The notes under the pieces were generated by a model. The model saw only the letters and a program-made list of their open reading frames with translations. It did not search any database and was not told the origin of the DNA. The translations under genes and the position numbers were made by a program. From Bolinopsis microptera (lineage: Eukaryota > Ctenophora > Tentaculata > Lobata > Bolinopsidae), in assembly GCF_026151205.1 (NCBI RefSeq), contig NC_087080.1:8459720-8523719 (forward strand): 64,000 bases of DNA. The letters are read 5' to 3'. Shown here piece after piece: positions 33,618-64,000 of this stretch (positions within the stretch are counted from its first letter, which is position 1; each line of letters begins with the position of its first letter).

Positions 33618-34988
33618 CTATCGGGTCATCAGAACGGCTGACCACCCGTGCAGCGAAGTTGCTGTCTTTTCTGCGCTCCAGTTCAATAACGAATTCCCGT
33701 TCTGGCAACAATATCCAGTAACAGGAGGTTCGTCCGGAATAGATGTAACAAACTCCGTCAACAATGACTTGAAGCGTAGGGGGTCCTCGATAAGGTGCAG
33801 GTTTGCGGGAATGATATTCCACAATCGAGGCCCCATCACTACAAATGAGCTGTCAAAGATCGATTGATTCCTTTGGCTACTGGACGTTGACAAGCTAGGG
33901 ACTACTGCTTTCTGGCCATAACGGAGTGTATCTGTAAACTGAACGTTGACATCATTAGGACACTTCTTGTGTAGGATCTTCCACATATGAATGATAGTGT
34001 AACGTTCTCTCCTCCGTTGAAGTGACATCAATTTTAAGGCCTTCAGTCTCTGCCAATAGTTCAGATGTTGCACACCATGTATTTTGGACGTAAATGTACG
34101 TTGTACTCCCTCTAGCTCAGCGATATCAGCTTGCTTAGTTGAATTCCAGAGGGGACAACAGTACTCGAGATGGCTTCTGACTAATGACTTGTAGAGGGTC
34201 AGCATAGTGATCTTGTTTCTCGATCTAAAAGCGCTCAGAACCCAAGAGGCAACTTTACGGGCACGATCTGCTATCATAGTAACATGGGAGCTCCAAGACA
34301 AGTCCGCCGAGATCAAAACCCCCAGGTCTTTGACTGAATCCGTAGGGTACATTATGTTACCATGCGAAACTTGATAAGTTTGCGTCAGGATGGCAAACGG
34401 GAGGTCTTGCAAGCTGTTTCGGGGACAGTGTTTGTGCACACGTATCTCAAATTTATCCTCATGCAATGACATGTTATTGCATCTTGCCCAGTCGATGACA
34501 GATTTGAGATCATTTTGCAGTATACTTGCATCTTCAAGTGTATAGATGTGCCTCAAAATCCGTGTATCGTCAGCAAAGAATCTAATGACACATCCTGTGA
34601 TGCACAGCTTCATGTCATTAATGAACAAAATGAATAGCAGCGGGCCCAAAACTGTACCCTGTGGCACTCCGCTTATGATTGCTGCAGCAAGTGATGACAT
34701 CCCGTCCAACACAACACACTGTGTGCGGTCACTTAAGAAGGATTCGATCCACGACACCACCTTTTCGTGAATTCCCATTCTTCTAAGCTTCTTAATAAGC
34801 AGTCGGTGATCCACTTTATCAAATGCTTTCGCAAAGTCAAGGTATATGGCGTCAGTATCAGCGTTTTTCACCAATCCTTGAACAATGTCATCAACGTGAC
34901 TGAGCAGTTGGGTGAGACAGCTCCGCCCAGATCGAAAGCCATGTTGATTATCACAGAGTAATCCGTTCTTCTCTATGAAGCTAACCAT
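33618..34988 (-). CDS. LINE reverse transcriptase part of ORF2
   Basis: This is 456 residues from the fingers/palm to the C-terminus. DNQHGFRSGRSCLTQLL, FAKAFDKVDHRLL, SGVPQGTVLGPLL and FADDTR are the RT motifs, in order; the FADD box holds the catalytic aspartates. The C-terminal half (YKSLVRSHLEYCCPLWNS, then VQRTFTSKI) is the usual post-RT region of CR1-like elements. The N-terminal Met here is internal: the frame is the continuation of the endonuclease ORF after a one-base frameshift. It would copy the element's RNA at a nicked genomic site, if expressed as an intact ORF2. Confidence 0.9.
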   Translation of the reverse strand: MVSFIEKNGLLCDNQHGFRSGRSCLTQLLSHVDDIVQGLVKNADTDAIYLDFAKAFDKVDHRLLIKKLRRMGIHEKVVSWIESFLSDRTQCVVLDGMSSLAAAIISGVPQGTVLGPLLFILFINDMKLCITGCVIRFFADDTRILRHIYTLEDASILQNDLKSVIDWARCNNMSLHEDKFEIRVHKHCPRNSLQDLPFAILTQTYQVSHGNIMYPTDSVKDLGVLISADLSWSSHVTMIADRARKVASWVLSAFRSRNKITMLTLYKSLVRSHLEYCCPLWNSTKQADIAELEGVQRTFTSKIHGVQHLNYWQRLKALKLMSLQRRRERYTIIHMWKILHKKCPNDVNVQFTDTLRYGQKAVVPSLSTSSSQRNQSIFDSSFVVMGPRLWNIIPANLHLIEDPLRFKSLLTEFVTSIPDEPPVTGYCCQNGNSLLNWSAEKTATSLHGWSAVLMTR

Positions 34989-36660: not shown

Positions 36661-37757
36661 GGCACGTTCTGCATCATCTGGGCATGGGTAGGGAGCAGAG
36701 GTGTCGGATAGGGGTACTGGCGCTGTGGGTACGCCAATCCTGACTGAAGGTGTGGTGGGGGAAACTGGTATTGAGGGTTGGGGCGGAGACTGGCACGGAT
36801 TTCCGAGATTTCCCGAGTGAAGCAGGTTTGCATCCTGTCCATCAGTCTCGCTAACTCTAAAAAAGAAGCCCCATAATCAGCAACTGAGATAGAATCCTTG
36901 GAATCCTGGGTAGCTGTAGGGGCGGGGGCAGCTTTATCACCTTTCTTGGGCCGAGGAGCATCACCATTCTCCTTTCTCCGGGTCCCTTTCAGGTGGATAA
37001 ATGTGCACTCTGAGTTAGTACACAGCTTGTATTTGACAGAGAACTTACAGAGCACGGGATGAAAGAACTTGCAGCTGGAACCCTTATTGTAACCGAAGTT
37101 ACGCTGAGTACCAAAGCGGCAGTACTTATCACAGTATCTAGGGTGTTCGAACTCACAGACACGTCCTTCATGTTCTTTCTTCCCCCTTAAACCATGCGGA
37201 CATTTTCCTCGCTTATACTTCTCACACACCCGTTCTCTGACAACTTTATCCAGTTTTGAGTTGAGATCATTAAGATTTAACTTCTCCTGGTTCTCCTTGA
37301 AAGATTCCGATGTTTCGTTGTGAGGCAAGGAAACTTGCGAAGAAGATATAGTGTCAGCATTAAGTCTCGCAAGGATAGCGGGGTCCGTGATACTCACGCT
37401 ATCATGGGGAGTTTTCCTCTTTCTAGACACAATAGGCACACTAGACTCGTTGCAAGATTTGCACAGCCAAACGTAGCTAGAAGGTAGGTCTATCGAAGCC
37501 TGAGTTAAAACATCATGTAAACCAGATACAACAGCACAATCGTGAGATCCCCGAAAACACATATGGCAGTGAAAAAGCGGTTTCTGTTCCGGCTCGAGAT
37601 CTATCACGTATTTCTGGTTACACTCCGGGCATTGTGAGGGGAGCAAAGCGTTTAACCGGAACAGTATTCTACTGGCAAGTGTTTCCTTTGTGTAAATCTT
37701 ATTACGATCACTGTCAGCTAAGTTAATACACACAAATTCAGCACAATGCTCCAACAT
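36636..37757 (-). CDS. LINE ORF1 protein with PHD-like and CCCH zinc fingers
   Basis: The product is 373 residues. Near the N-terminus, CPECNQKY, CHMC and CKSC pairs form a PHD- or RING-like zinc site (about residues 40-110). In the middle, three spaced C-x-C-x-C-x-H fingers (CEKYKRGKCP, CDKYCRFG, CKFSVKYKLC followed by EFEH, KFFH and TFIH) form an RNA-binding CCCH array. A Lys-rich linker and a Pro/Gln/Tyr-rich C-terminus follow. It probably packages the element's RNA. It stops with TAA at 36636-36638, inside the start of the endonuclease frame. Confidence 0.82.
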   Translation of the reverse strand: MLEHCAEFVCINLADSDRNKIYTKETLASRILFRLNALLPSQCPECNQKYVIDLEPEQKPLFHCHMCFRGSHDCAVVSGLHDVLTQASIDLPSSYVWLCKSCNESSVPIVSRKRKTPHDSVSITDPAILARLNADTISSSQVSLPHNETSESFKENQEKLNLNDLNSKLDKVVRERVCEKYKRGKCPHGLRGKKEHEGRVCEFEHPRYCDKYCRFGTQRNFGYNKGSSCKFFHPVLCKFSVKYKLCTNSECTFIHLKGTRRKENGDAPRPKKGDKAAPAPTATQDSKDSISVADYGASFLELARLMDRMQTCFTREISEIRASLRPNPQYQFPPPHLQSGLAYPQRQYPYPTPLLPTHAQMMQNVPTIPHALS

Positions 37758-37960
37758 TTCAAGATTAGACGACTTTAATGCTTTGAGATTTTTAGCTCGC
37801 TATTTTGAATGATCAAACTTCGAGATGACTTGTTTTACTATTTTGTTCGTTCCCGCACGGAGAAGCAAGTTCCCGATCGATAATTCATTCGATAACTCTA
37901 TTTCAGATAATGTACAACCACTTGTGTATAGCCACACTCACAGTACAATGTATGCACAAT

Positions 37961-38210: not shown

Positions 38211-39550
38211 TATACTATTTTATACTATTTTATACTATTTTATACTATTTTATACTATTTTATACTATTTTATACTATTTTATACTATTTTATACTATTT
38301 TATACTATTTTATACTATTTTATACTATTTTATACTATTTTATACTATTTTATACTATTTTATACTATTTTATACTATTTTATACTATTTTATACTATTT
38401 TATACTATTTTATACTATTTTATACTATTTTATACTATTTTATACTATTTTATACTATTTTATACTATTTTATACTATTTTATACTATTTTATACTATTT
38501 TATACTATTTTATACTATTTTATACTATTTTATACTATTTTATACTATTTTATACTATTTTATACTATTTTATACTATTTTATACTATTTTATACTATTT
38601 TATACTATTTTATACTATTTTATACTATTTTATACTATTTTATACTATTTTATACTATTTTATACTATTTTATACTATTTTATACTATTTTATACTATTT
38701 TATACTATTTTATACTATTTTATACTATTTTATACTATTTTATACTATTTTATACTATTTTATACTATTTTATACTATTTTATACTATTTTATACTATTT
38801 TATACTATTTTATACTATTTTATACTATTTTATACTATTTTATACTATTTTATACTATTTTATACTATTTTATACTATTTTATACTATTTTATACTATTT
38901 TATACTATTTTATACTATTTTATACTATTTTATACTATTTTATACTATTTTATACTATTTTATACTATTTTATACTATTTTATACTATTTTATACTATTT
39001 TATACTATTTTATACTATTTTATACTATTTTATACTATTTTATACTATTTTATACTATTTTATACTATTTTATACTATTTTATACTATTTTATACTATTT
39101 TATACTATTTTATACTATTTTATACTATTTTATACTATTTTATACTATTTTATACTATTTTATACTATTTTATACTATTTTATACTATTTTATACTATTT
39201 TATACTATTTTATACTATTTTATACTATTTTATACTATTTTACACTATTTTATACTATTTTATACTATTTTATACTATTTTATACTATTTTATACTATTT
39301 TATACTATTTTATACTATTTTATACTATTTTATACTATTTTATACTATTTTATACTATTTTATACTATTTTATACTATTTTATACTATTTTATACTATTT
39401 TATACTATTTTATACTATTTTATACTATTTTATACTATTTTATACTATTTTATACTATTTTATACTATTTTATACTATTTTATACTATTTTATACTATTT
39501 TATACTATTTTATACTATTTTATACTATTTTATACTATTTTATACTATTT
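38211..39550. repeat. Decamer TATACTATTT tandem array, 134 copies
   Basis: There are exactly 134 consecutive copies of TATACTATTT. The only variant is TACACTATTT at 39241-39250. Because 30 bp encode ten residues, the array makes a long artefactual ORF repeating YTILYYFILF. The near-perfect purity means very recent expansion or ongoing homogenisation, and real length is likely to vary between individuals and assemblies. Confidence 0.98.
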
Positions 39551-40705
39551 TATATAACATCTTTGGTTTTATGTGTACGATTTATAACCAAAAGTCGTTC
39601 CACTCCACGAACGAAAGGCGACCATGAAGCCATAAGTGTACAATTTTAGTCATCCCGATTCCACTTTTTTTGTTTTTAATGTTTCGTTAAGATTATATAT
39701 TTGTTTACAAAATACTATTAAGTCAAACATGTAATACGGATAAATACGACTTTAAGCATTGACTGTTTCTGAAATTTACTTTCTGAATCAATATTTAGTT
39801 AGTTTGAATCTACAAATAGATTAAATTGATTTTACCTTTCAACAAATATAACAAAAAATATTGCAAAAGCAAAAGTAATAATATTCTTTTTCGTACCGGT
39901 CACTTGTCACCTCGTTACCCTAGGTTACGAATTCACCGTCGCGTACGGTAATATAAATGTTCCTTGTTAACTGAAATACAAATCAACCCAACTCAACCAT
40001 GCCCGAACGTTGAAATTGAAATGAAGTGTGCTCGCATATTTCTGCAGCATTATCCTATTATCGTATACCAGAAGTCATTTTGTCATCTATATTTTCTATA
40101 TTTATATGGACACTATATATGATCGTTGATGCAGCTATTTTGGCCTGCATTTAACTGCTAGTTCGAGTTCCTTGGGCGAGAATCAATGTGAATTGGCTTT
40201 ATCATTAAAAATAACTGAACAAAGGGGCCACTACCCTCTCCCCCTATTTTAATTTTACTACCACATGGGAGAGTAAAATCTCAAGTCACAAAAAGTGTAA
40301 CTTAACACCATGTGGATTGTGGCCTTTCTTCATCCTCACCATCATCTCAATTTTTAATTTTCGTATTTCGATTGCTGTTGGGTAAATATATCGTTTTTTT
40401 GCTTATTTTCATTTTCTATTGTTTCATATCAAAATGGATACGTTTCTACTTCATGATCTTACTGCTTAGAATAATAAGACTCGTAACTTCTTTTTTTTTA
40501 ACGCTAGCCATTACACCCGAAATCATTCTCTTATCAAAACCAGAATAAAACGTAGAGGTTCGTGTTTAATTGTCATGCTGTAATGTATGTACTGATGCGG
40601 CTTTAAAAATTGACTTATCGTTCTTTTATTTATATTTTTCCACTTCAAGCGCTAAGGAATAAAAAGACGTTGCAAGAACTGCGATAAACATTCTAGGAGC
40701 TGGCT
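39551..40705. other. 5' flank of the large sushi/EGF/Ig gene
   Basis: AT-rich, no gene seen. The ORF at 40312-40548 is hydrophobic low-complexity and has no support. Transcription of the large gene presumably starts here, but no core promoter motif is convincing. Confidence 0.45.
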
Positions 40706-46700: not shown

Positions 46701-49700
46701 ACTTCTTACAAAGTGGGGGATACTGAGGTAATAATTGAGGGGAGCACAATAACCATGACTCTTGATGGTACCGATGTGAAGATTGGTGCAGATGTTGTTA
46801 TGTCTTGCGCTCTGACAAAAACAGACTTGTCTGCTGAAGTTACGGTATGTGAAAATATGTTATTCCTAATTGTGCGTGCAGGTTTTCTTTACACGCGATA
46901 TGTATTTTGTAATCTCCCTTTAGACTTTGTTTTTTATTGGAAATTCAGCCGGTATGTAATTGTACAATGTATCGTTCCATTGACCAGATATTAGAAACTT
47001 TATAATGTTACTGATGAATACCGAGATAGAGCCACAAGAATAAAGTTCTGAAGCTAGACTATGATTTAAATTTCTTCAGGAATCACTGGGAGGTATTGAC
47101 CCAGTGGATGGTTCAGTAACACTCCAAGACTCAAGATACCAGGGCTGCATCAGAAAGATAACGGTTAACGGTATGGATATCATGCAAAAAACTGCCGACA
47201 ATGTGAACAATAACGCTGACACAGTGCAGTGTATTAGTAGCTTGAACCCTGAAGATCCCTGTGAGGGAGATGGTAATCCGTGTCTGAATAATGGAGAGTG
47301 TAGTATTGAGCCGGCTGACTACTCAGGTAAAAGAACAAATTAATAACAGAATTAAGTACTTTATTAAGTTTTAATTTGGTATTAATTCAACAATGCTTAC
47401 GTATTTTAACTGAGATGTTTGTGTTTAACTTTCTTTAACGCCTCTGGTGTTAGTGTTTAGATTTTACTTATGGCCGGAACTTTTATCAGATTTTATTATG
47501 TATCATTTTACTACTCACCCTGATCTAAATGCTAACACCTCTCGTTGATTTCAGCTAAGTGTGCTTGTACCGTGCCATACACCGTCGGCGAAACTTGTAC
47601 CCGACAAGCGTTTTGCACAAAAGGCCACACGTGCACCGAAAACGGTACGTGCACAGAATTGGATTCAATAACAGACTGCGAAGCAGCAAAAGAGACGAAA
47701 GAGGAGCTGACTTGTGGAGAAGGAGACAGATGGTACTACTATTGTAGCTGTAATGAAGGTTGGCAGGGCGACAATTGTGACGTGGAAATAGGTATGAATT
47801 CTAGATTTTTGTTTACGTCGATAATACAGACATTTATTTTCAATTTCAGCACTTAATAGTGCTATTACCTTACTCGGGATTATTACGACGGGTTTATTAA
47901 CGACCGGTTAAAATATGGTTCGGGAAAAATATGGCGAAATTGCTCAAAACCCACCACATTTTCCCGGTCGCCATTTTACCGGTGTCCAACCTTTCAATTT
48001 TAGATTCAAAAATTTGTCTCAGATGTAAATTTCCTTATTAGAGATAAGCAAGTTTAGAAATTTTTGCATTGCTAAAACTTGTGAAACAAGTCGAATTATC
48101 AATAATTGTTGAAAGTAGACAGAAATAATGACTCGTGGTTAATCAAACTAGACGGAAAATAATTGTCTTCGAAAGAATGCATCGTTCACATTGTTTAGAA
48201 TTATGAATAAATGACTGATGAAACTGATTCATGTTACTGACAGTTTTAATTAATCCAAGTTTTAATTTAACTGTTACTTTTACTTTGAGTCCTATTTCAT
48301 TATGTAGAGATAGTCAATACCTAAGAAATTAAAAATTGGCCTATTTAAATCAACTTTGACAATAAGGATATATGACAAGAATTGGGCAAAAAGGTGAATT
48401 TTTTGTAATTTTAGCCAAATGAAGTCGAAAAACCTACAACAAGTGTCCCAATAGTCTTTTTTAGTGAATATAAGACAACGATTAAAATATGAGCACCCAT
48501 ACCCCTTGGGAACCCTAAAAGCTGAGTCGGCGGGTTTATTAACGACCGGTGAAAATGTGGTTCGGGAAAAATATGGCGAAATTACCCTAAACCCGCCACT
48601 TTATCCCGGTCATAATAATCCCGAGTAAGGTAAATATTAATTTCAGCGGTAAATGCTGTGAACAAAGAACAGCTAACAGGCACGATTGCAAGAATATCGT
48701 GTACTGTTACGGGTTTGACAGAGGAGCTTGGTGTCACAAAATGGACCACTTCTGAGGATGTTGATGTGACGAGTCTAGAAGGCTACACCGTTGTTCCGGG
48801 ATCGTTGGAAGTAGATACTCAAACTACCACTCTGACTATTCCTGCTGATAAGAACAACAATGATGCAACTTACTGGTGTGTTATCACTTCCACTGAACAT
48901 GGTTTAGCAGATCAGAAAACTGAAGTCAGTTCCAAAGTTTTTAGTAAGTATTGTAACTTAAATTTGTATGTAATGTATATCCTGAAGGTAACGTTTTATT
49001 AATATTTAAACTTGTAAAAGTGTAGTCCTTGAGTGGTGTAAATGTGTGTTTGTACAAATAATTACATATGTATAATAAAGATAATATGTTATTAATTATA
49101 TATAATTACGTCTAGTACAGGGAGTACTTAGTGACCGGGACAATGTAGCATAAGGAGTGATTTAACACGCTCACACAGGCTGACTTTCAGCTCCACCGCC
49201 ACCGGCCACCTGCTTAGATAGGTGATGGTAGAAGTTATTTTCAGCTGCAGAAATAGCGGTGTCCCGCCTACTTAATGCTCGAACTAGCTCTTTCCTAGTT
49301 TCCACCGGAAGCGCCATATAGAGAATTTCCTTGGATAGCTGTCACGTGACAGTCACGAGATATCGATTGAGCGCGTTTACTGGTTGGATATGTAGCGCGT
49401 GATATTGATCTATTATGCAGACCCAATTACGCACCATATAAGGCGTAATTACTGGCTGCATCTAGCACGTGATATTTGTAAAGCCAATTACACATCCATA
49501 TAAGGCGTAATTAAGAGCTCGGAGTTGCAGTGGAGTTGCAGGGAGTTGTAATAGCGTGAAATTGGGTGGTAATTCGTTGATAAGGGGTACATACAAGTAA
49601 ATGTTTCGTGAACTATGTTGGTATAAAGCCAACTTTGGTTTTAGAACAGTGTGTGAGGGCGCGTACAGATGGAAGTGCACTGATTTGTTGTTCAGATGGT

Positions 49701-52700
49701 TAGAATAAAGATTTGTCCGAACCGGCTGAAATCGTTGTTACGTTGAAAACTGTTTCGATTACCTTGTTACCTAGCTAGTAACTTGGTATGAAGAGAGAGT
49801 GCAAACCAGACGAAAGTAAGACGAAGTCTCGGGGATCGGGGATGCAGCCTACAATGGGCATGAATATATAGAGGGCCCTAGGTTGCTCCCCAGATCGGCA
49901 GTCCAATAACACATTTTCTGAAAATTTCTAATTTCTAAACTTTTCATCAGTCCTACGCCACTGGGGAATGATAGAAAGATGCGATCGTGCTGACTGAATC
50001 ACTCTACGGAACATTTAAAGCAAAATTCTTTAAATGCTCATTTTTGTATAATTTCCGACTTGATATCTCAAAATAATGGGTTTCATTCGCTATCCTTCCG
50101 TAACAATTAACGACACTTTTCGACAACATGTCATGTCGCTTTTGATGCATAAAGCGAAGCATACAACCTTACCAAAACCGATCTTAGTTGACTTAAAATA
50201 GAAATTAGACGCAAGAGTTGAATTTTTTACAAAACATATTATCAGTATAATTTCATCACAAACCAGGAATTAAAGTTTTGTTGATAACTGATCAAATCAT
50301 AATACACGTAATCTATATAGTACCCATTAAAAATCTTTTAACTGTTTAATTATAATGCCTTGCACTCTTAGTAAATGTGTGGCTGTACAAATAATTATAT
50401 ACGTATAATAAAGATAATATCCTCTAACATGAACCAAACAATTCAGCTGTCACCTCAACACCCAAGTCTATAACGACCGCTGTAGATCAGACGTTGACTT
50501 GCAATATCGGAGGTCTAGACAATAGTGGATCCCCTGCTACTGTAACTTGGAAGGATAGTGCTGGACAAGAAGTTATAAGAACGGATACCACCAACTATGG
50601 TTGGAACCAAGGGACGGTAGATAGCAGCGGAAATCAAGCAGCAGAACTGACTATCAAAACTGCAAAGCTGGATGGTTTTAGTAGTCCATCATCATTCACC
50701 TACAAGTGCTCAGTCAAATCTTCCCAATACACAGATTCTCCTGCATCTGACTACGTAGATGTTGTAGCTAATATTCTAAAATTGGGTGAGTTTAGAATAT
50801 GTCATACTGTTAATCAAGGAAGTTCAAAGATTGTCGGACACTCAGTGGTAAGTTATTCTAACTAAATATTAATTTCAGAGGTAAATGCTGTGAACAAAGA
50901 ACAGCTAACAGGCACGATTGCAAGGATATCGTGTACTGTTACAGGTTTGACAGAGGAGCTTGGTGTCACAAAATGGACCACTTCTGAGGATGTTGATGTG
51001 ACGAGTCTAGAAGGCTACACCGTTGTTCCGGGATCGTTGGAAGTAGATACTCAAACTACTACTCTGACTATTCCTGCTGATAAGAACAACAATGATGCAA
51101 CTTACTGGTGTGTTATCACTTCCACTGAACATGGTTTAACAGATCAGAAAACTGAAGTCAGTTCCAAAGTCTTTAGTAAGTATTGTAACTTAAAGTTGTA
51201 TGTAATGTATATCCTGAAGGTAACGTTTTATTAATATTTAAACTTGTAAAAGTGTAGTCCTTGAGTGGTGTAAATGTGTGTTTGTACAAATAATTACATA
51301 CGTATAATAAAGATAATATCCTCTAACATGAACCAAACAATTCAGCTGTCACCTCAACACCCAAGTCTATAACGACCGCTGTAGATCAGACGTTGACTTG
51401 CAATATCGGAGGTCTAGACAATAGTGGATCCCCTGCTACTGTAACTTGGAAGGATAGTGCTGGACAAGAAGTTATAAGAACGGATACCACCAACTATGGT
51501 TGGAACCAAGGGACGGTAGATAGCAGCGGAAATCAGGCAGCAGAACTGACTATCAAAACTGCAAAGCTGGATGGTTTTAGTAGTCCATCATCATTCACCT
51601 ACAAGTGCTCAGTCAAATCTTCCCAATACACAGATTCTCCTGCATCTGACTACGTAGATGTTGTAGCTAATATTCTAAAATTGGGTGAGTTTAGAATATG
51701 TCATACTGTTAATCAAGGAAGTTCAAAGATTGTCGGACACTCAGTGGTAAGTTATTCTAACTAAATATTAATTTCAGAGGTAAATGCTGTGAACAAAGAA
51801 CAGCTAACAGGCACGATTGCAAGGATATCGTGTACTGTTACAGGTTTGACAGAGGAGCTTGGTGTCACAAAATGGACCACTTCTGAGGATGTTGATGTGA
51901 CGAGTCTAGAAGGCTACACCGTTGTTCCGGGATCGTTGGAAGTAGATACTCAAACTACTACTCTGACTATTCCTGCTGATAAGAACAACAATGATGCAAC
52001 TTACTGGTGTGTTATCACTTCCACTGAACATGGTTTAACAGATCAGAAAACTGAAGTCAGTTCCAAAGTCTTTAGTAAGTATTGTAACTTAAAGTTGTAT
52101 GTAATGTATATCCTGAAGGTAACGTTTCATTAATATTTTAACTTGTAAAAGTGTAGTGTTTAACTGGTGTAAATGTGTGTTTGTACGAATAATTATATAC
52201 GTATAATAAAGATAATATCCTCTAACATGAACCAAACAATTCAGCTGTCACCTCAACACCCAAGTCTATAACGACCGCTGTAGATCAGACGTTGACTTGC
52301 AATATCGGAGGTCTAGACAATAGTGGATCCCCTGCTACTGTAACTTGGAAGGATAGTGCTGGACAAGACGTTATAAGAACGGAAACCACCAACTATGGTT
52401 GGAACCAAGGGACGGTAGATAGCAGCGGAAATCAAGCAGCAGAACTGACTATCAAAACTGCAAAGCTGGATGGTTTTAGTAGTCCATCATCAGTCACCTA
52501 CAAGCAGGGACAAAAGGATTTCGCGGCATGTACGAAATCGCGAAATTTCCCATTCTCCGCGACAAATTTTATGTATAGTTTAATGTATAGCCTGTTAAAT
52601 TTCGCGGTATCGCGAAATTTGGCCAAAATAATCGCGAAATCCTTTTGTCCCTGCCTACAAGTGCTCAGCCAAATCTTCCCAATACACAGATTCTCCTGCA

Positions 52701-55700
52701 TCTGACTACGCAGATGTTGTAGCTAACATTCTAAAATTGGGTGAGTATAGAATATGTCGTACTGTTAATCAAGGAAGTTCAAAGATTGTCGGACACTCAG
52801 TGGTAAGTTATTCTAACTAAATATTAATTTCAGAGGTAAATGCTGTGAACAAAGAACAGCTAACAGGCACGATTGCAAGGATATCGTGTACTGTTACAGG
52901 TTTGACAGAGGAGCTTGGTGTCACAAAATGGACCACTTCTGAGGATGTTGATGTGACGAGTCTAGAAGGCTACACCGTTGTTCCGGGATGGTTGGAAGTA
53001 GATACTCAAACTACTACTCTGACTATTCCTGCTGATAAGAACAACAATGATGCAACTTACTGGTGTGTTATCACTTCCACTGAACATGGTTTAACAGATC
53101 AGAAAACTGAAGTCAGTTCCAAAGTCTTTAGTAAGTATTGTAACTTAAAGTTGTATGTAATGTATATCCTGAAGGTAACGTTTTATTAATATTTAAACTT
53201 GTAAAAGTGTAGTCCTTGAGTGGTGTAAATGTGTGTTTGTACAAATAATTACATACGTATAATAAAGATAATATCCTCTAACATGAACCAAACAATTCAG
53301 CTGTCACCTCAACACCCAAGTCTATAACGACCGCTGTAGATCAGACGTTGACTTGCAATATCGGAGGTCTAGACAATAGTGGATCCCCTGCTACTGTAAC
53401 TTGGAAGGATAGTGCTGGACAAGAAGTTGTAAGACCGGATACCACCAACTATGGTTGGAACCAAGGGACGGTAGATAGCAGCGGAAATCAGGCAGCAGAA
53501 CTGACTATCAAAACTGCAAAGCTGGATGGTTTTAGTAGTCCATCATCATTCACCTACAAGTGCTCAGTCAAATCTTCCCAATACACAGATTCTCCTGCAT
53601 CTGACTACGTAGATGTTGTAGCTAATATTCTAAAATTGGGTGAGTTTAGAATATGTCATACTGTTAATCAAGGAAGTTCAAAGATTGTCGGACACTCAGT
53701 GGTAAGTTATTCTAACTAAATATTAATTTCAGAGGTAAATGCTGTGAACAAAGAACAGCTAACAGGCACGATTGCAAGGATATCGTGTACTGTTACAGGT
53801 TTGACAGAGGAGCTTGGTGTCACAAAATGGACCACTTCTGAGGATGTTGATGTGACGAGTCTAGAAGGCTACACCGTTGTTCCGGGATCGTTGGAAGTAG
53901 ATACTCAAACTACTACTCTGACTATTCCTGCTGATAAGAACAACAATGATGCAACTTACTGGTGTGTTATCACTTCCACTGAACATGGTTTAACAGATCA
54001 GAAAACTGAAGTCAGTTCCAAAGTCTTTAGTAAGTATTGTAACTTAAAGTTGTATGTAATGTATATCCTGAAGGTAACGTTTTATTAATATTTAAACTTG
54101 TAAAAGTGTAGTCCTTGAGTGGTGTAAATGTGTGTTTGTACAAATAATTACATACGTATAATAAAGATAATATCCTCTAACATGAACCAAACAATTCAGC
54201 TGTCACCTCAACACCCAAGTCTATAACGACCGCTGTAGATCAGACGTTGACTTGCAATATCGGAGGTCTAGACAATAGTGGATCCCCTGCTACTGTAACT
54301 TGGAAGGATAGTGCTGGACAAGACGTTATAAGAACGGAAACCACCAACTATGGTTGGAACCAAGGGACGGTAGATAGCAGCGGAAATCAAGCAGCAGAAC
54401 TGACTATCAAAACTGCAAAGCTGGATGGTTTTAGTAGTCCATCATCAGTCACCTACAAGCAGGGACAAAAGGATTTCGCGGCATGTACGAAATCGCGAAA
54501 TTTCCCATTCTCCGCGACAAATTTTATGTATAGTTTAATGTATAGCCTGTTAAATTTCGCGGTATCGCGAAATTTGGCCAAAATAATCGCGAAATCCTTT
54601 TGTCCCTGCCTACAAGTGCTCAGCCAAATCTTCCCAATACACAGATTCTCCTGCATCTGACTACGCAGATGTTGTAGCTAACATTCTAAAATTGGGTGAG
54701 TATAGAATATGTCGTACTGTTAATCAAGGAAGTTCAAAGATTGTCGGACACTCAGTGGTAAGTTATTCTAACTAAATATTAATTTCAGAGGTAAATGCTG
54801 TGAACAAAGAACAGCTAACAGGCACGATTGCAAGGATATCGTGTACTGTTACGGGTTTGACAGAGGAGCTTGGTGTCACAAAATGGACCACTTCTGAGGA
54901 TGTTGATGTGACGAGTCTAGAAGGCTACACCGTTGTTCCGGGATGGTTGGAAGTAGATACTCAAACTACTACTCTGACTATTCCTGCTGATAAGAACAAC
55001 AATGATGCAACTTACTGGTGTGTTATCACTTCCACTGAACATGGTTTAACAGATCAGAAAACTGAAGTCAGTTCCAAAGTCTTTAGTAAGTATTGTAACT
55101 TAAAGTTGTATGTAATGTATATCCTGAAGGTAACGTTTTATTAATATTTAAACTTGTAAAAGTGTAGTCCTTGAGTGGTGTAAATGTGTGTTTGTACAAA
55201 TAATTACATACGTATAATAAAGATAATATCCTCTAACATGAACCAAACAATTCAGCTGTCACCTCAACACCCAAGTCTATAACGACCGCTGTAGATCAGA
55301 CGTTGACTTGCAATATCGGAGGTCTAGACAATAGTGGATCCCCTGCTACTGTAACTTGGAAGGATAGTGCTGGACAAGAAGTTATAAGAACGGATACCAC
55401 CAACTATGGTTGGAACCAAGGGACGGTAGATAGCAGCGGAAATCAGGCAGCAGAACTGACTATCAAAACTGCAAAGCTGGATGGTTTTAGTAGTCCATCA
55501 TCATTCACCTACAAGTGCTCAGTCAAATCTTCCCAATACACAGATTCTCCTGCATCTGACTACGTAGATGTTGTAGCTAATATTCTAAAATTGGGTGAGT
55601 TTAGAATATGTCATACTGTTAATCAAGGAAGTTCAAAGATTGTCGGACACTCAGTGGTAAGTTATTCTAACTAAATATTAATTTCAGAGGTAAATGCTGT

Positions 55701-58700
55701 GAACAAAGAACAGCTAACAGGCACGATTGCAAGGATATCGTGTACTGTTACAGGTTTGACAGAGGAGCTTGGTGTCACAAAATGGACCACTTCTGAGGAT
55801 GTTGATGTGACGAGTCTAGAAGGCTACACCGTTGTTCCGGGATCGTTGGAAGTAGATACTCAAACTACTACTCTGACTATTCCTGCTGATAAGAACAACA
55901 ATGATGCAACTTACTGGTGTGTTATCACTTCCACTGAACATGGTTTAACAGATCAGAAAACTGAAGTCAGTTCCAAAGTCTTTAGTAAGTATTGTAACTT
56001 AAAGTTGTATGTAATGTATATCCTGAAGGTAACGTTTCATTAATATTTTAACTTGTAAAAGTGTAGTGTTTAACTGGTGTAAATGTGTGTTTGTACGAAT
56101 AATTATATACGTATAATAAAGATAATATCCTCTAACATGAACCAAACAATTCAGCTGTCACCTCAACACCCAAGTCTATAACGACCGCTGTAGATCAGAC
56201 GTTGACTTGCAATATCGGAGGTCTAGACAATAGTGGATCCCCTGCTACTGTAACTTGGAAGGATAGTGCTGGACAAGACGTTATAAGAACGGAAACCACC
56301 AACTATGGTTGGAACCAAGGGACGGTAGATAGCAGCGGAAATCAAGCAGCAGAACTGACTATCAAAACTGCAAAGCTGGATGGTTTTAGTAGTCCATCAT
56401 CAGTCACCTACAAGCAGGGACAAAAGGATTTCGCGGCATGTACGAAATCGCGACATTTCCCATTCTCCGCGACAAATTTTATGTATAGTTTAATGTATAG
56501 CCTGTTAAATTTCGCGGTATCGCGAAATTTGGCCAAAATAATCGCGAAATCCTTTTGTCCCTGCCTACAAGTGCTCAGCCAAATCTTCCCAATACACAGA
56601 TTCTCCTGCATCTGACTACGCAGATGTTGTAGCTAACATTCTAAAATTGGGTGAGTATAGAATATGTCGTACTGTTAATCAAGGAAGTTCAAAGATTGTC
56701 GGACACTCAGTGGTAAGTTATTCTAACTAAATATTAATTTCAGAGGTAAATGCTGTGAACAAAGAACAGCTAACAGGCACGATTGCAAGGATATCGTGTA
56801 CTGTTACAGGTTTGACAGAGGAGCTTGGTGTCACAAAATGGACCACTTCTGAGGATGTTGATGTGACGAGTCTAGAAGGCTACACCGTTGTTCCGGGATG
56901 GTTGGAAGTAGATACTCAAACTACTACTCTGACTATTCCTGCTGATAAGAACAACAATGATGCAACTTACTGGTGTGTTATCACTTCCACTGAACATGGT
57001 TTAACAGATCAGAAAACTGAAGTCAGTTCCAAAGTCTTTAGTAAGTATTGTAACTTAAAGTTGTATGTAATGTATATCCTGAAGGTAACGTTTTATTAAT
57101 ATTTAAACTTGTAAAAGTGTAGTCCTTGAGTGGTGTAAATGTGTGTTTGTACAAATAATTACATACGTATAATAAAGATAATATCCTCTAACATGAACCA
57201 AACAATTCAGCTGTCACCTCAACACCCAAGTCTATAACGACCGCTGTAGATCAGACGTTGACTTGCAATATCGGAGGTCTAGACAATAGTGGATCCCCTG
57301 CTACTGTAACTTGGAAGGATAGTGCTGGACAAGAAGTTGTAAGACCGGATACCACCAACTATGGTTGGAACCAAGGGACGGTAGATAGCAGCGGAAATCA
57401 GGCAGCAGAACTGACTATCAAAACTGCAAAGCTGGATGGTTTTAGTAGTCCATCATCATTCACCTACAAGTGCTCAGTCAAATCTTCCCAATACACAGAT
57501 TCTCCTGCATCTGACTACGTAGATGTTGTAGCTAATATTCTAAAATTGGGTGAGTTTAGAATATGTCATACTGTTAATCAAGGAAGTTCAAAGATTGTCG
57601 GACACTCAGTGGTAAGTTATTCTAACTAAATATTAATTTCAGAGGTAAATGCTGTGAACAAAGAACAGCTAACAGGCACGATTGCAAGGATATCGTGTAC
57701 TGTTACAGGTTTGACAGAGGAGCTTGGTGTCACAAAATGGACCACTTCTGAGGATGTTGATGTGACGAGTCTAGAAGGCTACACCGTTGTTCCGGGATCG
57801 TTGGAAGTAGATACTCAAACTACTACTCTGACTATTCCTGCTGATAAGAACAACAATGATGCAACTTACTGGTGTGTTATCACTTCCACTGAACATGGTT
57901 TAACAGATCAGAAAACTGAAGTCAGTTCCAAAGTCTTTAGTAAGTATTGTAACTTAAAGTTGTATGTAATGTATATCCTGAAGGTAACGTTTCATTAATA
58001 TTTTAACTTGTAAAAGTGTAGTGTTTAACTGGTGTAAATGTGTGTTTGTACGAATAATTATATACGTATAATAAAGATAATATCCTCTAACATGAACCAA
58101 ACAATTCAGCTGTCACCTCAACACCCAAGTCTATAACGACCGCTGTAGATCAGACGTTGACTTGCAATATCGGAGGTCTAGACAATAGTGGATCCCCTGC
58201 TACTGTAACTTGGAAGGATAGTGCTGGACAAGACGTTATAAGAACGGAAACCACCAACTATGGTTGGAACCAAGGGACGGTAGATAGCAGCGGAAATCAA
58301 GCAGCAGAACTGACTATCAAAACTGCAAAGCTGGATGGTTTTAGTAGTCCATCATCAGTCACCTACAAGTGCTCAGCCAAATCTTCCCAATACACAGATT
58401 CTCCTGCATCTGACTACGCAGATGTTGTAGCTAACATTCTAAAATTGGGTGAGTATAGAATATGTCGTACTGTTAATCAAGGAAGTTCAAAGATTGTCGG
58501 ACACTCAGTGGTAAGTTATTCTAACTAAATATTAATTTCAGAGGTAAATGCTGTGAACAAAGAACAGCTAACAGGCACGATTGCAAGGATATCGTGTACT
58601 GTTACGGGTTTGACAGAGGAGCTTGGTGTCACAAAATGGACCACTTCTGAGGATGTTGATGTGACGAGTCTAGAAGGCTACACCGTTGTTCCGGGATGGT

Positions 58701-61700
58701 TGGAAGTAGATACTCAAACTACTACTCTGACTATTCCTGCTGATAAGAACAACAATGATGCAACTTACTGGTGTGTTATCACTTCCACTGAACATGGTTT
58801 AACAGATCAGAAAACTGAAGTCAGTTCCAAAGTCTTTAGTAAGTATTGTAACTTAAAGTTGTATGTAATGTATATCCTGAAGGTAACGTTTTATTAATAT
58901 TTAAACTTGTAAAAGTGTAGTCCTTGAGTGGTGTAAATGTGTGTTTGTACAAATAATTACATACGTATAATAAAGATAATATCCTCTAACATGAACCAAA
59001 CAATTCAGCTGTCACCTCAACACCCAAGTCTATAACGACCGCTGTAGATCAGACGTTGACTTGCAATATCGGAGGTCTAGACAATAGTGGATCCCCTGCT
59101 ACTGTAACTTGGAAGGATAGTGCTGGACAAGAAGTTGTAAGACCGGATACCACCAACTATGGTTGGAACCAAGGGACGGTAGATAGCAGCGGAAATCAGG
59201 CAGCAGAACTGACTATCAAAACTGCAAAGCTGGATGGTTTTAGTAGTCCATCATCATTCACCTACAAGTGCTCGGTCAAATCTTCCCAATACACAGATTC
59301 TCCTGCATCTGACTACGTAGATGTTGTAGCTAACATTCTAAAATTGGGTAAGTTTAGAATATGTCATACTGTTAATCAAGGAAGTTCAAAGATTGTCGGA
59401 CACACAGTGGTAAGCTATTCTAACTACCTTACTCGGGATTATTACGACGGGTTTATTAACGACCGGTTAAAATATGGTTCGGGAAAAATATGGCGAAATT
59501 GCTCAAAACCCACCACATTTTCCCGGTCGCCATTTTACCGGTGTCCAACCTTTCAATTTTAGATTCAAAAATTTTGTCTCAGATGTAAATTTCCTTATTA
59601 GAGATAAGCAAGTTTAGAAATTTTTGCATTGCTAAAACTTGTGAAACAAGTCGAATTATCAATAATTGTTGAAAGTAGACAGAAATAATGACTCGTGGTT
59701 AATCAAACTAGACGGAAAATAATTGTCTTCGAAAGAATGCATCGTTCACATTGTTTAGAATTATGAATAAATGACTGATGAAACTGATTCATGTTACTGA
59801 CAGTTTTAATTAATCCAAGTTTTAATTTAACTGTTACTTTTACTTTGAGTCCTATTTCATTATGTAGAGATAGTCAATACCTAAGAAATTAAAAATTGGC
59901 CTATTTAAATCAACTTTGACAATAAGGATATATGACAAGAATTGGGCAAAAAGGTGAATTTTTTGTAATTTTAGCCAAATGAAGTCGAAAAACCTACAAC
60001 AAGTGTCCCAATAGTCTTTTTTAGTGAATATAAGACAACGATTAAAATATGAGCACCCATACCCCTTGGGAACCCTAAAAGCTGAGTCGGCGGGTTTATT
60101 AACGACCGGTGAAAATGTGGTTCGGGAAAAATATGGCGAAATTACCCTAAACCCGCCACTTTATCCCGGTCATAATAATTCCGAGTAAGGTAACGTTTAA
60201 AATTTAAAATTTTTATTTTTATGGCTACAGGTTATTTTGAAATCATATTGGTAAGAAAATTCGTAACTTCAGGGGTAGTCGCAAAAGACAGCGAAGTTCT
60301 CGAGGACACAGCGGCAACAATATCTTGTGTAGTGAACGGCCTGACAAAGCAATTGGACGCGGTAACATGGGAGAAACCTAGTACGGGTGGTGTTATAACT
60401 ACCGGTACTGACGACTATCAGATTGAAGTTGGAACTTACGATTCTGGTTCAAACAGTCAAACTACAATTCTGACAATTTCTGGACCTGCAAACGGGGCTG
60501 ATGCTGTTTACACATGTGTCTTTCAATCTGACGAGCATGGAAAGACATTAGGGTCTGAAGAGAAAACTGATGTTAACTCGAACGTGTTCAGTGAGTATCT
60601 TACTAATATTAACTGTATACGGATGTTCAGAAGTTTAATTTTGTTACTTGTCAATGCACTAACCGTGATACTGCACCAATGGTTTTTATAGCAGCCGGTT
60701 TAGCTAATGATATTAAATGATCTTGAAACCATTTATCTCAAATTATTTCAGCTATTGCTCCTGTTGTCATGTCGGCAACTACTGCTGTGGATCAGACATT
60801 GGTCTGCAATATCGGAGACGTAACTACAGCTGTTACTGTATCATGGACGAGTGGAGATAACACCCCAATAACAGACGGTCAGGGAGGATACACTATCACC
60901 CAAGGGACAGTTAGCACCAATATCCAGGAATCTAGTCTGACCATCACAGCTGCTACGCTACAACAACTGGATACAAGTTCAGTGATATGGAAGTGTGCAG
61001 CTAAGTCCTCACACTACCCAGACTCAGAGCAGTCTGAATACAAAGATCTCACTCTCACTTTCCTTACTTTAGGTTTGTTCTTTAGATCGGTTTGTATGGA
61101 AATTGAAAAGAAACCTAGATAAACAGTGCATAACGTTTAAAATTTAAAATCTTTATTTTTATGGCTACAGGTTATTTTGAAATCATATTGGTAAGAAAAT
61201 TCGTAACTTCAGGGGTAGTCGCAAAAGACAGCGAAGTTCTCGAGGACACAGCGGCAACAATATCTTGTGTAGTGAACGGCCTGACAAAGCAATTGGACGC
61301 GGTAACATGGAAGAAACCTAGTACGGGTGGTGTTATAACTACCGGTACTGACGACTATCAGATTGACGTTGGAACTTACGATTCTGGTTCAAACAGTCAA
61401 ACTACAATTCTGACAATTCCTGGACCTGTAAACGGGGCTGATGCTGTTTACACATGTGTCATTCAATCTGACGAGCATGGAAAGACATCAGGGTCTGAAG
61501 AGAAAACTGATGTTAAATCGAACGTGTTCAGTGAGTATCTTACTAATATTAACTGTATACGGATGTTCAGAAGTTTAATTTTGTTACTTGTCAATGCACT
61601 AACCGTGATACTGCACCAATGGTTTTTATAGCAGCCGGTTTAGCTAATGATATTAAATGATCTTGAAACCATTTATCTCAAATTATTTCAGCTATTGCTC

Positions 61701-64000
61701 CTGTTGTCATGTCGGCAACCACCGCTGTGGATCAGACATTGGTCTGCAATATCGGAGACGACACTACAGCTGTTACTGTTTCATGGACGAGTGGAGATAA
61801 CACCCCGATAACAGACGGTCAGGGAGGATACACTATCACCCAAGGGACAGTTAGCACCAATATCCAGGAATCTAGTCTGACCATCACAGCTGCTACGCTA
61901 CAACAACTGGATACAAGTTCAGTGATATGGAAGTGTGCAGCTAAGTCCTCACACTACCCAGACTCAGAGCAGTCTGAATACAAAGATCTCACTCTCACTT
62001 TCCTTACTTTAGGTTTGTTCTTTAGATCGGTTTGTATGGAAATTGAAAAGAAACCTAGATAAACAGTGCATAACGTTTAAAATTTAAAATCTTTATTTTT
62101 ATGGCTACAGGTTATTTTGAAATCATATTGGTAAGAAAATTCGTAACTTCAGGGGTAGTCGCAAAAGACAGCGAAGTTCTCAAAGACACAGGGACGACAA
62201 TATCTTGTGTAGTGACAGGCCTGACAAAGGGATTGGACGCAGTAGGATGGAAAAATCCGGATGGTTTTATAACGCACGGTTCTGACGATATCGATGACTA
62301 TCAGATTGAAGAGGGGTCTTACATTTTTGGTTCAAAAAGTCAAACTACAGTTCTGACAATTCCTGCAACCAAAAACACGGGTGATGCTGTTTACACATGT
62401 GTCATTCAATCTGCCGAGCATGGAAAGATATCAGGGTCTGAAGAGGAAAACACTGTTAACTCGAACGTGTTCAGTGAGTATCTTACTGATTTTAACTTGT
62501 TACGGATGTTTAGAAGTTTAATCTTGTTACTTGTGAAGGCACTAACCATGCTATATCAATGGTTTTTCTAGTAGCTGGTTTAGCTAATGATATTAAAATG
62601 ATCTTTAAATTATTTTATCTAGTACATTTTATTTTACAAAAGTCCAAAGGTCCTTCGCATTTGGTCGTTTCACTATTTCTGAACGAAATGTTTGTCCACA
62701 TTTTATTTTAAATAGTTCTCGTGAAATCTTGCTCCTATGTAAGATAGCAGATCCCAATACCATTATTACTAATATTAATGAGACAGTACAACTTTTCTTG
62801 TTAACATTGTACAATGTTTGTAATTTACGGACCGAAAATCGCCATTTCAAAAGAGAATAAAGCCTCTATTGCCAGAAATTGATCCTTAATCCTCGCCTAC
62901 AAATCTTCTCTAACAATAATTATCTAACCATCTTGTTAAGATGACCAATATACTCATAATATTCATCATGATATTCCTCATCATAATAATTGAAACTACA
63001 TCAGTTGGACATTGGGTCAGCTAATGAAATAAACTTTAATTGATCTTGAAACCTTGTATCTCCAATTATTTCAGCTATCACTCCTGTTGACATGTCGGCA
63101 ACCGACGCTGTGGACCAGACATTGGTCTGCAATATCGGAGACGTAACTACAGCTGTTACTGTATCATGGACGGATCAAGATAACACCCCAATAACAACCG
63201 GTAATGGATACACTATCACACCGGGGGCAGTTGACGGTGTCACCAATATCCAGGAATCTAGTCTGACCATAGACACTACTACGTTAAAAGAACTGGATAC
63301 AAGTTCAGGCTCCGTGATATGGAAGTGTGCAGCTAAGTCCTCACAATACCCAGACTCAGAGCAGTCTGAATACAAAGATCTCACTGTCACTTTCCTTACT
63401 TTAGGTTTGTTCTTTAGATCTGTATGTATGGAGATTAAAAAGAAACCTATATAAACAGTAGGGGTCGCCCTCTGTTATGAGGTGCTTTAATCAATTAGCC
63501 CCACGTCAGATCGTGTAGTCGATAATTTTTCCTACACGGGGATACCAAGATTTTAAAAATTGACCAATGTCAATAACGTTATGCACTGTTTATTAAACAG
63601 TGCATAACGTTTAAAATTTAAAATCTTGATTTTTACGACTACATTTTATTTTAAAATCATTTGGTAAGAAAATTCGTAATTTCAGCGGTAGAAGCAAAGG
63701 ACAGCGAAGTTCTCAAAGACACAGTGGCGACAATATCTTGTGTAGTGACAGGCCTGACAAAGCAATTGGACGCAGTAGCATGGAAAAATTCGGATGGTTC
63801 TATAACGCACGGTTCTGACGCTACCGTCGACTATCAGATTGAAGAGGGGACTTACATTCTCGGTTCAAAAAGTCAAACTACAGTTCTGACAATTCCTGCA
63901 ACCGAAAACAAGCATGATGCTGTTTACACATGTGTCATTCAATCTGACGAGCATGGAAAGACATCAGGGTCCGAAGAGGATGAAACTGTTAACTCGGACG
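40706..64000 (+). CDS. Large modular sushi/EGF/laminin-G/Ig protein, 3' end outside window
   Basis: I assembled 44 exons by GT-AG borders and phase. Exon 1 (40706-40763) encodes a signal peptide (MLRNLLFSVLVLQALHDFR). Then come sushi and EGF exons (41261-44623), two laminin-G domains with EGF modules (44769-47791), and alternating Ig exons from 48647 to the window end: 14 IgA type, the last partial, and 13 IgB type. Nearly all borders are phase 1, the signature of shuffled extracellular modules. No membrane helix is reached, so it may be secreted or a cell-surface receptor. The mix of modules suits adhesion or recognition. It is not a family I can name. Three IgB exons are broken by a MITE. 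Evidence for the gene is strong; the complete transcript model is inferred. Confidence 0.85.
41261..44623 (+). other. Sushi and EGF exon block of the large gene
   Basis: The exons are 41261-41482 (sushi-like), 41849-42151 (EGF plus sushi), 42268-42567 (EGF plus sushi), 42889-43119 (sushi-like), 43415-43714 (EGF plus sushi), 43860-43945 and 44126-44271 (two EGF-like modules across a phase 0 intron), and 44477-44623 (EGF with DPCVPDPCKNGATC). The sushi parts show the Cys...Cys...Trp or Cys pattern, with GYF or GYY before the third Cys. The repeated EGF core CTDGTCNAGVCECNDGYEKS is shared by the second and third exons. The donor after 44623 (GTTGGT) is weak and is the least certain border. Confidence 0.8.
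44769..47791 (+). other. Laminin-G and EGF exon block of the large gene
   Basis: The exons are 44769-44874 and 45140-45518 (first laminin-G-like domain), 45639-45740 (EGF, CENSGKCDSASGQITCSC), 45966-46088, 46375-46458, 46699-46844 and 47080-47326 (second laminin-G domain ending RYQGCIRKITVNG, then an EGF), and 47555-47791 (two EGF-like modules, ending EGWQGDNCDVEI). Phases agree throughout. Donor GTTCGC after 44874 is non-consensus, but reading on meets a stop after two codons. Laminin-G plus EGF resembles the layout of neurexin, agrin and slit-type proteins; here it links the sushi part to the Ig array. Confidence 0.78.
47868..48630. mobile_element. TA-site MITE, copy 1, at the 5' edge of the Ig array
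   Basis: The 763-bp element starts CCTTACTCGGGATTATTA and ends with the inverse, and is flanked by TA on both sides, as in Tc1/mariner-type insertions. A direct repeat of about 70 bp (GGGTTTATTAACGACCGG and onward) lies near each end (about 47889 and 48531). There is no coding capacity. It lies in the intron between the last EGF exon and the first Ig exon. Copy 2, at 59427, is almost identical, differing by one indel and a few bases. Confidence 0.88.
49088..50383. mobile_element. Insertion in the first Ig intron, possibly a solo LTR or unknown element
   Basis: Compared with the other units, this intron is about 1.3 kb longer. The extra DNA lies between two copies of a sequence of about 37 bp (GTACAAATAATTA then ATAATAAAGATAATAT; 49050-49087 and 50384-50420). 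Inside are two diverged copies of a segment of about 65 bp (49382-49451 and 49452-49513, both ending ATATAAGGCGTAATTA). It also has a TATAAAG at 49622, an AATAAA at 49704 and a TTGGTATGAAGAGAG at 49783 that faintly resembles a primer-binding site. An LTR origin is only a guess. Confidence 0.4.
52245..52740 (+). pseudogene. IgB exon 3, disrupted by hAT-type MITE
   Basis: Up to 52504 the exon is normal. The MITE at 52505-52653 plus its 8-bp duplication adds 157 bases just before the second conserved Cys of the Ig fold, shifts the frame and leads to a stop at 52703-52705. The exon borders remain intact (acceptor before 52245, donor after 52740). Skipping the exon would keep the transcript in frame because both borders are phase 1. 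Confidence 0.88.
52505..52653. mobile_element. 149-bp hAT-type MITE, copy 1
   Basis: Termini are CAGGGACAAAAGGATTTCGC and its inverse, and both sides carry the 8-bp target duplication CCTACAAG (52497-52504 and 52654-52661). An 8-bp duplication and CAGGG ends are typical of hAT elements. An internal inverted repeat (AATTTCGCG type) gives further folding. The empty site is preserved in the IgB exon at 58110. Confidence 0.92.
54200..54695 (+). pseudogene. IgB exon 5, disrupted by hAT-type MITE
   Basis: This has the same structure as the exon at 52245, exactly 1955 bp downstream, with the MITE at 54460-54608 and the same frameshift and stop. Because the insertion site and element are identical, it arose by duplication of the unit, not by a new transposition. 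Confidence 0.88.
54460..54608. mobile_element. 149-bp hAT-type MITE, copy 2
   Basis: This is identical in position and apparently in sequence to the copy at 52505, with the same flanking CCTACAAG duplications. It was carried along by amplification of the 1955-bp dimer. Confidence 0.92.
56155..56650 (+). pseudogene. IgB exon 7, disrupted by hAT-type MITE
   Basis: Third disrupted copy, again 1955 bp further on. It has the same frameshift and stop. It carries one private base change inside the MITE (CGACATTTCC in place of CGAAATTTCC), so the copies have begun to diverge. Confidence 0.88.
56415..56563. mobile_element. 149-bp hAT-type MITE, copy 3
   Basis: Same ends and same 8-bp duplication as the copies at 52505 and 54460. 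One A-to-C change distinguishes it. Confidence 0.92.
58110..58448 (+). other. Intact IgB exon with the MITE empty site
   Basis: This copy belongs to the same QDVIRTET subtype as the three disrupted exons but has a single CCTACAAG (58362-58369) and no insertion, so the reading frame runs through YKCSAKSSQY to the donor. It is either the ancestral uninserted form or a perfectly restored one produced by gene conversion. Confidence 0.9.
59427..60190. mobile_element. TA-site MITE, copy 2, at the 3' edge of the Ig array
   Basis: This 764-bp copy is nearly identical to the one at 47868 and in the same orientation, flanked by TA. It sits between the last unit of the amplified array (left flank TTCTAACTA) and the diverged Ig exons that start at 60273. 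It makes an ORF running past 59348 look longer, but that extension is intronic. Confidence 0.88.
60273..64000 (+). repeat. Second, more diverged array of IgA-IgB pairs
   Basis: IgA-type exons are 60273-60590, 61213-61530, 62153-62473 and 63686 to beyond the edge; IgB-type exons are 60752-61072, 61692-62012 and 63075-63404. The first two pairs are 940 bp apart and almost identical; the third and fourth are clearly diverged (for example KNPDGFITHGS in the third). All are phase 1-1. Conserved features are ISCVV...GLTK, DAVYTCV for IgA and TLVCNIGD, VIWKCAAKSS for IgB. The intron 62474-63074 is about 440 bp longer than its paralogues and holds unrelated AT-rich DNA. Confidence 0.88.
63575..63611. 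repeat. 18-bp-arm palindrome in an Ig intron
   Basis: AACGTTATGCACTGTTTA (63575-63592) and its exact complement (63594-63611) flank one base. The right arm (CAGTGCATAACGTTTAAAAT) is the same sequence that precedes the other IgA exons at 61124-61143 and 62064-62083, so an inverted partial copy of the intron has been added on the left here. Confidence 0.85.

Follow-up and report, generated by a model that had tools for sequence, protein, structure and literature searches.

A 64,000-nucleotide stretch of the genome of the ctenophore Bolinopsis microptera (positions 8,459,720 to 8,523,719 of contig NC_087080.1; hereafter the window) contains a gene with a tandem array of immunoglobulin (Ig)-type exons, three of which are interrupted at the same base by a 149-bp, hAT-like miniature inverted-repeat transposable element (MITE). 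A fourth exon of the same type carries the target sequence uninterrupted. We consider it quite probable that the MITE inserted once and was multiplied by duplication and exchange within the array. The filled exons would then most likely be dead or 'poison' exons, and the insertion young and probably polymorphic.

The gene lies on the plus strand and spans from approximately 41.2 kb to beyond the right end of the window, to which all comparisons of the gene, array, and element were confined. Its upstream part consists of cysteine-rich modules (Pfam Sushi, EB, and Teneurin-type EGF, with every match below its own cut-off), followed by pairs of Ig-type exons, here named IgA and IgB. In the young part of the array, the 899-bp unit comprises an IgB exon of 339 nt, an intron of 93 nt, an IgA exon of 297 nt, and an intron of 170 nt, and the reading frames place both types of exon in phase 1-1. 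The 10 IgB exons start at positions 50447, 51346, 52245, 53301, 54200, 55256, 56155, 57211, 58110, and 59009, and each unit is named by the start of its IgB exon minus 3 (e.g., unit 54197 for exon 54200). According to the bases on either side of the insertion site, four of these exons were classified as X-type (52245, 54200, 56155, and 58110) and six as Y-type. Nine of the 10 units were compared pairwise and were 97.7–100% identical, with private bases in the units at the edges of the array; the last unit, 59006, runs into an element that brackets the array (see below), and it was left out of the pairwise table; its columns past 420 were also omitted from the column-wise comparison of units. 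The array exons are predicted to encode Ig folds. The IgA exon gave a weak Pfam match to Ig_3 (E = 0.0021, below the cut-off), and a Pfam search of the IgB exon gave no match. A structure model of IgB, based on six aligned modules from the window (three young and three older), had a mean pLDDT of 78.7 and a pTM of 0.74, and its top three Foldseek matches, which were the only ones with E ≤ 0.001, were Ig domains (query TM-scores of 0.52–0.65), the best of which was myosin-binding protein C (E = 5.6e-05). A sequence search of the PDB returned a single weak match, to an antibody chain (E = 0.035), and a search of a collection of viral contigs with the IgA protein gave six pattern matches, none of which was confirmed. 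The features of the array discussed below are as follows.

50447..59347, plus strand: young part of the array, 10 IgB exons with interleaved IgA exons (unit of 899 bp, or 1056 bp with the MITE)
52245..52740, plus strand: filled X-type IgB exon of 496 nt, with a frameshift and a stop at 52703-52705
52497..52504, plus strand: left target copy CCTACAAG of MITE copy 1
52505..52653, plus strand: hAT-like MITE copy 1, inside IgB exon 52245-52740 (149 bp, 21/21 bp inverted ends, folding)
52654..52661, plus strand: right target copy CCTACAAG of MITE copy 1
54200..54695, plus strand: filled X-type IgB exon, with an open frame ending at 54660
54460..54608, plus strand: MITE copy 2, identical to copy 1 (target copies at 54452-54459 and 54609-54616)
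56155..56650, plus strand: filled X-type IgB exon, with an open frame ending at 56615
56415..56563, plus strand: MITE copy 3, one base different (target copies at 56407-56414 and 56564-56571)
58110..58448, plus strand: empty X-type IgB exon, open
58362..58369, plus strand: uninterrupted target CCTACAAG in exon 58110-58448

The element is defined by its ends and by the duplication that flanks it. The terminal inverted repeats (CAGGGACAAAAGGATTTCGCG) are complementary over 21 of 21 bp, and the 8-bp sequence CCTACAAG is duplicated on both sides of all three copies; a reading made from the sequence alone (the sequence-only reading) had placed the element and its 8-bp duplication in exons 52245, 54200, and 56155, with coordinates that proved exact to the base. 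Between positions 50001 and 60000, perfect inverted k-mers with a span of 100–250 bp numbered 33, 24, 15, and 6 at k = 12, 15, 18, and 21, respectively (each pair being registered in both directions), and 100 pooled dinucleotide shuffles gave 13, 0, 0, and 0. When folded alone, the element was more stable than all 200 of its shuffles, both as DNA (z = −8.37) and as RNA (z = −8.35). One of its three plus-strand frames is open across the 49 codons of the element, which is too short for a transposase. No further copies were found within the window, the 21-bp end had no exact match in collections of viral contigs and of bacterial and archaeal genome contigs, and a search of positions 7100–64000 against Rfam gave no match at the gathering score. 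The inverted repeats of hAT elements begin with CA(G), as do those of this element, and the combination of inverted ends with an 8-bp duplication is consistent with the hAT superfamily, so the element can be called hAT-like by its architecture only. The terminal inverted repeats of hAT MITEs range from approximately 10 to 25 bp (PMC3942097).

All three filled exons are X-type, among the 10 IgB exons of the array, and share the base of insertion, the orientation, and the target copy. Together with the single-nucleotide difference among the MITE copies and the near-identity of the flanking sequences, these features give good support to the multiplication of one insertion within the array, as the sequence-only reading had proposed, whereas three independent insertions at the same base, in the same orientation, and in near-identical flanks were rejected. 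In the proposed course of events, the coding IgB exon of a single X-type module would have received a non-autonomous hAT-like MITE in one insertion, directly before the codon of the second Ig cysteine. Duplication, together with exchange among near-identical modules, would then have spread the element until it occupied three of the four X-type sites, in an order that we can only infer. An assembly artefact affecting the copy number or the filled/empty pair might be suspected in repeats as similar as these, particularly as three pairs of units that lie 3910 bp apart are identical. We nevertheless regard this as very unlikely, given that the two blocks of the array differ by eight bases between units 53298 and 57208 and by the presence of the element in 54197 and not in 58107, that the single-nucleotide difference in the MITE is confined to the third copy, and that the edge units carry their private bases.

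The claim of an internal empty site was also borne out. Apart from the element and one copy of the target, the empty unit 58107 and the filled unit 54197 agree at 899 of 899 bases, and comparisons of 58107 with the other two filled units, 52242 and 56152, each show a single difference. In exon 58110, the bases 4 bp upstream and 8 bp downstream of the target are X-type (unit offsets 251 and 270, with the target at 255–262), which shows that the site was not overwritten with a Y-type exon, and no remnant or excision footprint was found at its target, which is a single intact CCTACAAG. The identity of the units, the X-type flanks, and the lack of a footprint mean that the sequence of 58110 most likely descends from DNA never hit by the element. 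At column 499, a G is common to units 58107 and 54197 and to the first IgA exon at the edge of the array, which suits an empty ancestor. The unit at 58110 would be one that was never hit or one that was refilled from a never-hit template.

The consequences for the message can be predicted from the frame. The filled exon gains 157 nt, and translation passes through the element without a stop, leaves the original frame, and reaches a stop 49 nt past the element. The site of insertion separates K86 from C87, the latter being the second Ig cysteine; both residues are invariant in all six aligned IgB modules, and the insertion point falls inside a predicted strand (residues 81–90) of the IgB model. 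Each filled exon would most likely be dead or act as a 'poison' exon. Its persistence would be explained by a very recent insertion that is probably still polymorphic, with in-frame skipping of the symmetric exon as a possible rescue.

Several observations weigh against this reading or complicate it. First, the target consensus is nTnnnnAn in the Ac group of hAT elements and nnnTAnnn in the Buster group, and CCTACAAG, with A at position 7, C at position 2, and AC at positions 4–5, fits neither fully, this being one site only; the 21/21-bp ends, the 8-bp duplication, and the short, non-coding sequence do agree with a hAT MITE. Second, units 3910 bp apart are identical in three of four pairs (51343/55253, 52242/56152, and 54197/58107), and the fourth pair, 53298/57208, shows eight differences. 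Identical pairs four places apart point to the duplication of a four-unit block, in which case the gain of the element at 54197 and its loss at 58107 are equally costly and the order of events may run either way. Third, the filled units have two types of flank: 52242 and 56152 match the empty site over 1024 bp leftward and 236 bp rightward, and 54197 matches it over 308 bp leftward and 767 bp rightward. Duplication alone is thus insufficient, and at least one exchange among modules is required. Finally, the IgB acceptor of the array is without a clear pyrimidine tract, and on a matrix built from this gene (19 acceptors chosen by eye from open frames, of which 18 end in CAG and one in TAG), its leave-one-out score of −4.6 is the second lowest of the 19, which favours skipping; the leave-one-out scores are inflated for those of these acceptors that are close kin (two older IgA and two older IgB). 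The array itself reads as a duplicated four-unit block (51343–55252 and 55253–59005), with the element in the fourth unit of the first block only.

The block structure and the flanks are also what could be cited for an alternative history, in which 58110 was once filled and the element later disappeared, either because an empty template converted the exon or because the element was excised precisely. A four-unit block makes 58107 the counterpart of the filled 54197, and the flanks of 58107 look recombinant, its left 1024 bp being as in 52242 and 56152 and its right 767 bp as in 54197. The excision of hAT elements usually leaves footprints, but the target in 58110 is single and intact and no remnant was detected; moreover, prior filling adds one extra event on a tree without the block duplication, and conversion from an empty template would still leave pre-insertion sequence at 58110. 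We consider a filled past for this exon unlikely, though worth keeping in mind.

A second alternative concerns the fate of the filled exons. They might be routinely skipped, with one IgA exon joined to the next, to give a protein that is otherwise intact but lacks three Ig domains, so that the array would tolerate dead modules. The suggestion that the broken exons can be skipped in frame stands up, because the array exons are in phase 1-1 and the omission of a whole exon would keep the frame. The weak IgB acceptor of the array also speaks for skipping, compared with scores of 9.6 and 9.3 for the two older IgB acceptors, both of which are inflated because each is close kin of the other. A precedent exists in the mdm allele of titin, with its in-frame loss in the mature mRNA (PMC9482285). 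On the other hand, the splice site scores of the filled exons are identical to those of the intact exons, the weak acceptor is common to the unbroken exons as well, and the short introns (93 and 170 nt) point to intron definition, in which an alteration within an exon does not necessarily lead to skipping. Routine skipping is accordingly possible but doubtful in our judgement, and the likelier outcome, with about an even chance of being correct, is a recent and probably polymorphic insertion that creates a poison exon or a null haplotype; this is favoured by the splice sites that the filled exons share with the intact exons and by the short flanking introns. The acceptors of exon 50447 and of the other array IgB exons score much lower than those of the gene's older IgB exons. 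This weakness leaves room for the optional use of the array IgB exons, broken or not, and these exons may therefore be optional in splicing.

The element might also be spliced out, or supply a new splice site, and so restore an open exon. Such behaviour would resemble that of introners, which are splice-site-providing DNA transposons, and the two have in common an inverted-repeat element with target copies inside a coding exon. In the filled exon, 46 donor–acceptor pairs would restore the frame without a stop, the best of which uses a GT directly after the first 25 bases of the element. Unlike introners, however, the element cannot be removed exactly, because no offset within the target copies pairs a GT or GC start with an AG end (the sole offset ending in AG starts with CA, and the sole offset starting with GC ends in AA), and an exactly removed intron of the introner type was rejected on this basis. 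Each of the best 12 of the 46 pairs would remove the second cysteine or a large part of the domain. The sequence-only reading had further suggested that the right target copy could serve as a new acceptor, and this was not supported. When an array donor, which is in phase 1, is joined to 52662, the frame shifts and a stop follows after 14 codons, and the acceptor at 52662 scores −17.5 on the gene matrix, compared with −4.6 for the native IgB acceptor; a generic matrix does favour it (−0.3, compared with −4.8 for the native acceptor). The right target copy was therefore rejected as a useful acceptor, being out of frame for the array donors and dissimilar to the acceptors of this gene. A CAG located 7 nt past the right target copy is in frame for the array donor, but it is also present in the unbroken exons and is weakened by the element (−3.6 with it and −1.7 without it). 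Restoration of an open exon by splicing within or around the element thus seems highly improbable.

The array as a whole is enclosed by two copies of a different element.

47868..48630, plus strand: TA-flanked element forming the left bracket, 763 bp, without a long open frame
59427..60190, plus strand: TA-flanked element forming the right bracket, 764 bp, with two differences from the left copy

The two copies have the same orientation and a TA on both sides, and the first copy has perfect terminal repeats of 18 bp. When the inner flanks are rejoined, they form TTCTAAC-TA-AATATT, as in the 93-nt intron of the array. Joined in the same way, the outer flanks give a sequence resembling that with which the older Ig modules at 61131, 62071, and 63605 begin, but to the left of the TA, the likeness is limited to the five bases AGTGC, and the match of the outer TA (2 bp) is weak when taken alone. 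With two like elements, an outer target duplication, and the inner halves of a donor site, the layout is that of a composite transposon, and the bracket is what such a transposon, or a circle recombined into a resident element, would leave; integration of a circle into a resident element would give the same sequence as movement by a transposase. The EGF-like exon ending at 47791 and the older IgA exon starting at 60273 meet in phase 1, so a run of phase 1-1 exons fits between them without breaking the frame. These observations allow a further, rather improbable reading, in which the array was the cargo of two 0.76-kb elements and entered a phase-1 intron upstream of an older Ig module in one step, after which it expanded freely while its transposon-broken exons spread and were skipped. 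If this were true, ready-to-splice phase 1-1 Ig exons would have been added at once, as exon shuffling by a composite DNA transposon or circle integration, and confirmation of the bracket elements would document the arrival of a whole series of domain exons in an intron by a single event. The bracketed array may be more interesting than the MITE insertion.

Several other features of the array and its surroundings were observed. The first module (49038–50420) contains a long intron, with approximately 1.3 kb of extra sequence between direct repeats of 50 bp that are 92% alike, and the array's 170-nt intron can be read as a recombinant of the left and right repeats, for which two different points of crossover are seen. 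A palindrome, AACGTTATGCACTGTTTA/TTAAACAGTGCATAACGTT, lies at 63574–63611, at the boundary of an older Ig module, and its right half recurs at the module boundaries 61131 and 62071. The counts of substitutions in the Ig exons were as follows: seven nonsynonymous and two synonymous between X- and Y-type IgB exons (pN/pS = 1.10), or five and one when another Y-type exon was used (1.57); one and one between the array IgA exons 51778 and 58542; one and four between the first IgA exon and 51778, and two and three between the first IgA exon and 58542; one and five in the older IgB pair; and seven and zero in the older IgA pair. These counts are too small for any conclusion on selection and give no clear answer. 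Elsewhere in the window, positions 1–7082 are occupied by a 7-kb array of a 15-bp unit, in which a minus-strand frame is open for 2391 codons and consists mostly of a PPTTT-type mucin-like repeat. Minus-strand open frames at 33618–37799 resemble a non-LTR retrotransposon with an endonuclease and a reverse transcriptase, as judged by eye from the frames, and 38211–39554 holds approximately 134 copies of a 10-bp repeat (TATACTATTT) with 99% matches.

Two parts are worth following: the filled/empty exon pair, which is otherwise identical over 899 bp, and the bracketed array. The former offers a clean natural record of a transposon insertion that spreads without transposing, by exchange inside one protein-coding gene, and makes it possible to ask directly whether skipping lets symmetric Ig exons absorb damage of this kind. 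In a literature search covering titles and the openings of abstracts, no element spread through an array of coding Ig exons was found among the matches listed, which is not proof of absence.

The element and the process are both of known kinds. The BuT2-related MITE-like sequences of Drosophila are, like the element described here, short and non-autonomous, with terminal inverted repeats and 8-bp target duplications (PMC3942097), whereas the present element is likened to hAT elements by its ends and duplication. In the mdm allele of titin, an element was likewise inserted into an Ig-repeat gene, but there a LINE-1 retrotransposon insertion is accompanied by a genomic deletion at one site and the in-frame loss is known from the transcript (PMC9482285), whereas our case is read from DNA. 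The bracketed array recalls the composite transposing element Ising of Drosophila (mentioned in PMC6431247), in which two copies of a DNA transposon carry the intervening DNA along with them as one piece; however, Ising involves foldback elements and hundreds of kilobases, in contrast to a 12-kb array between two 0.76-kb TA-flanked elements, the movement of which we infer. A close parallel to the spread of the MITE lies in Pokey and mPok of Daphnia, which occupy tandem ribosomal DNA (rDNA), where interrupted and intact units coexist under unequal crossing over and concerted evolution (PMC3849761). As described in that source, they resemble the present array in that a DNA transposon or MITE interrupts the functional portion of a gene unit repeated in tandem, and they differ in belonging to the piggyBac family, with TTAA targets, a preference for rDNA, RNA genes as hosts, and continuing new insertions; the array described here has a hAT-like MITE, apparently from one insertion, in protein-coding exons inside one gene. 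By analogy with Pokey and mPok in rDNA (PMC3849761), the exchange among modules proposed here would be the behaviour of concerted arrays.

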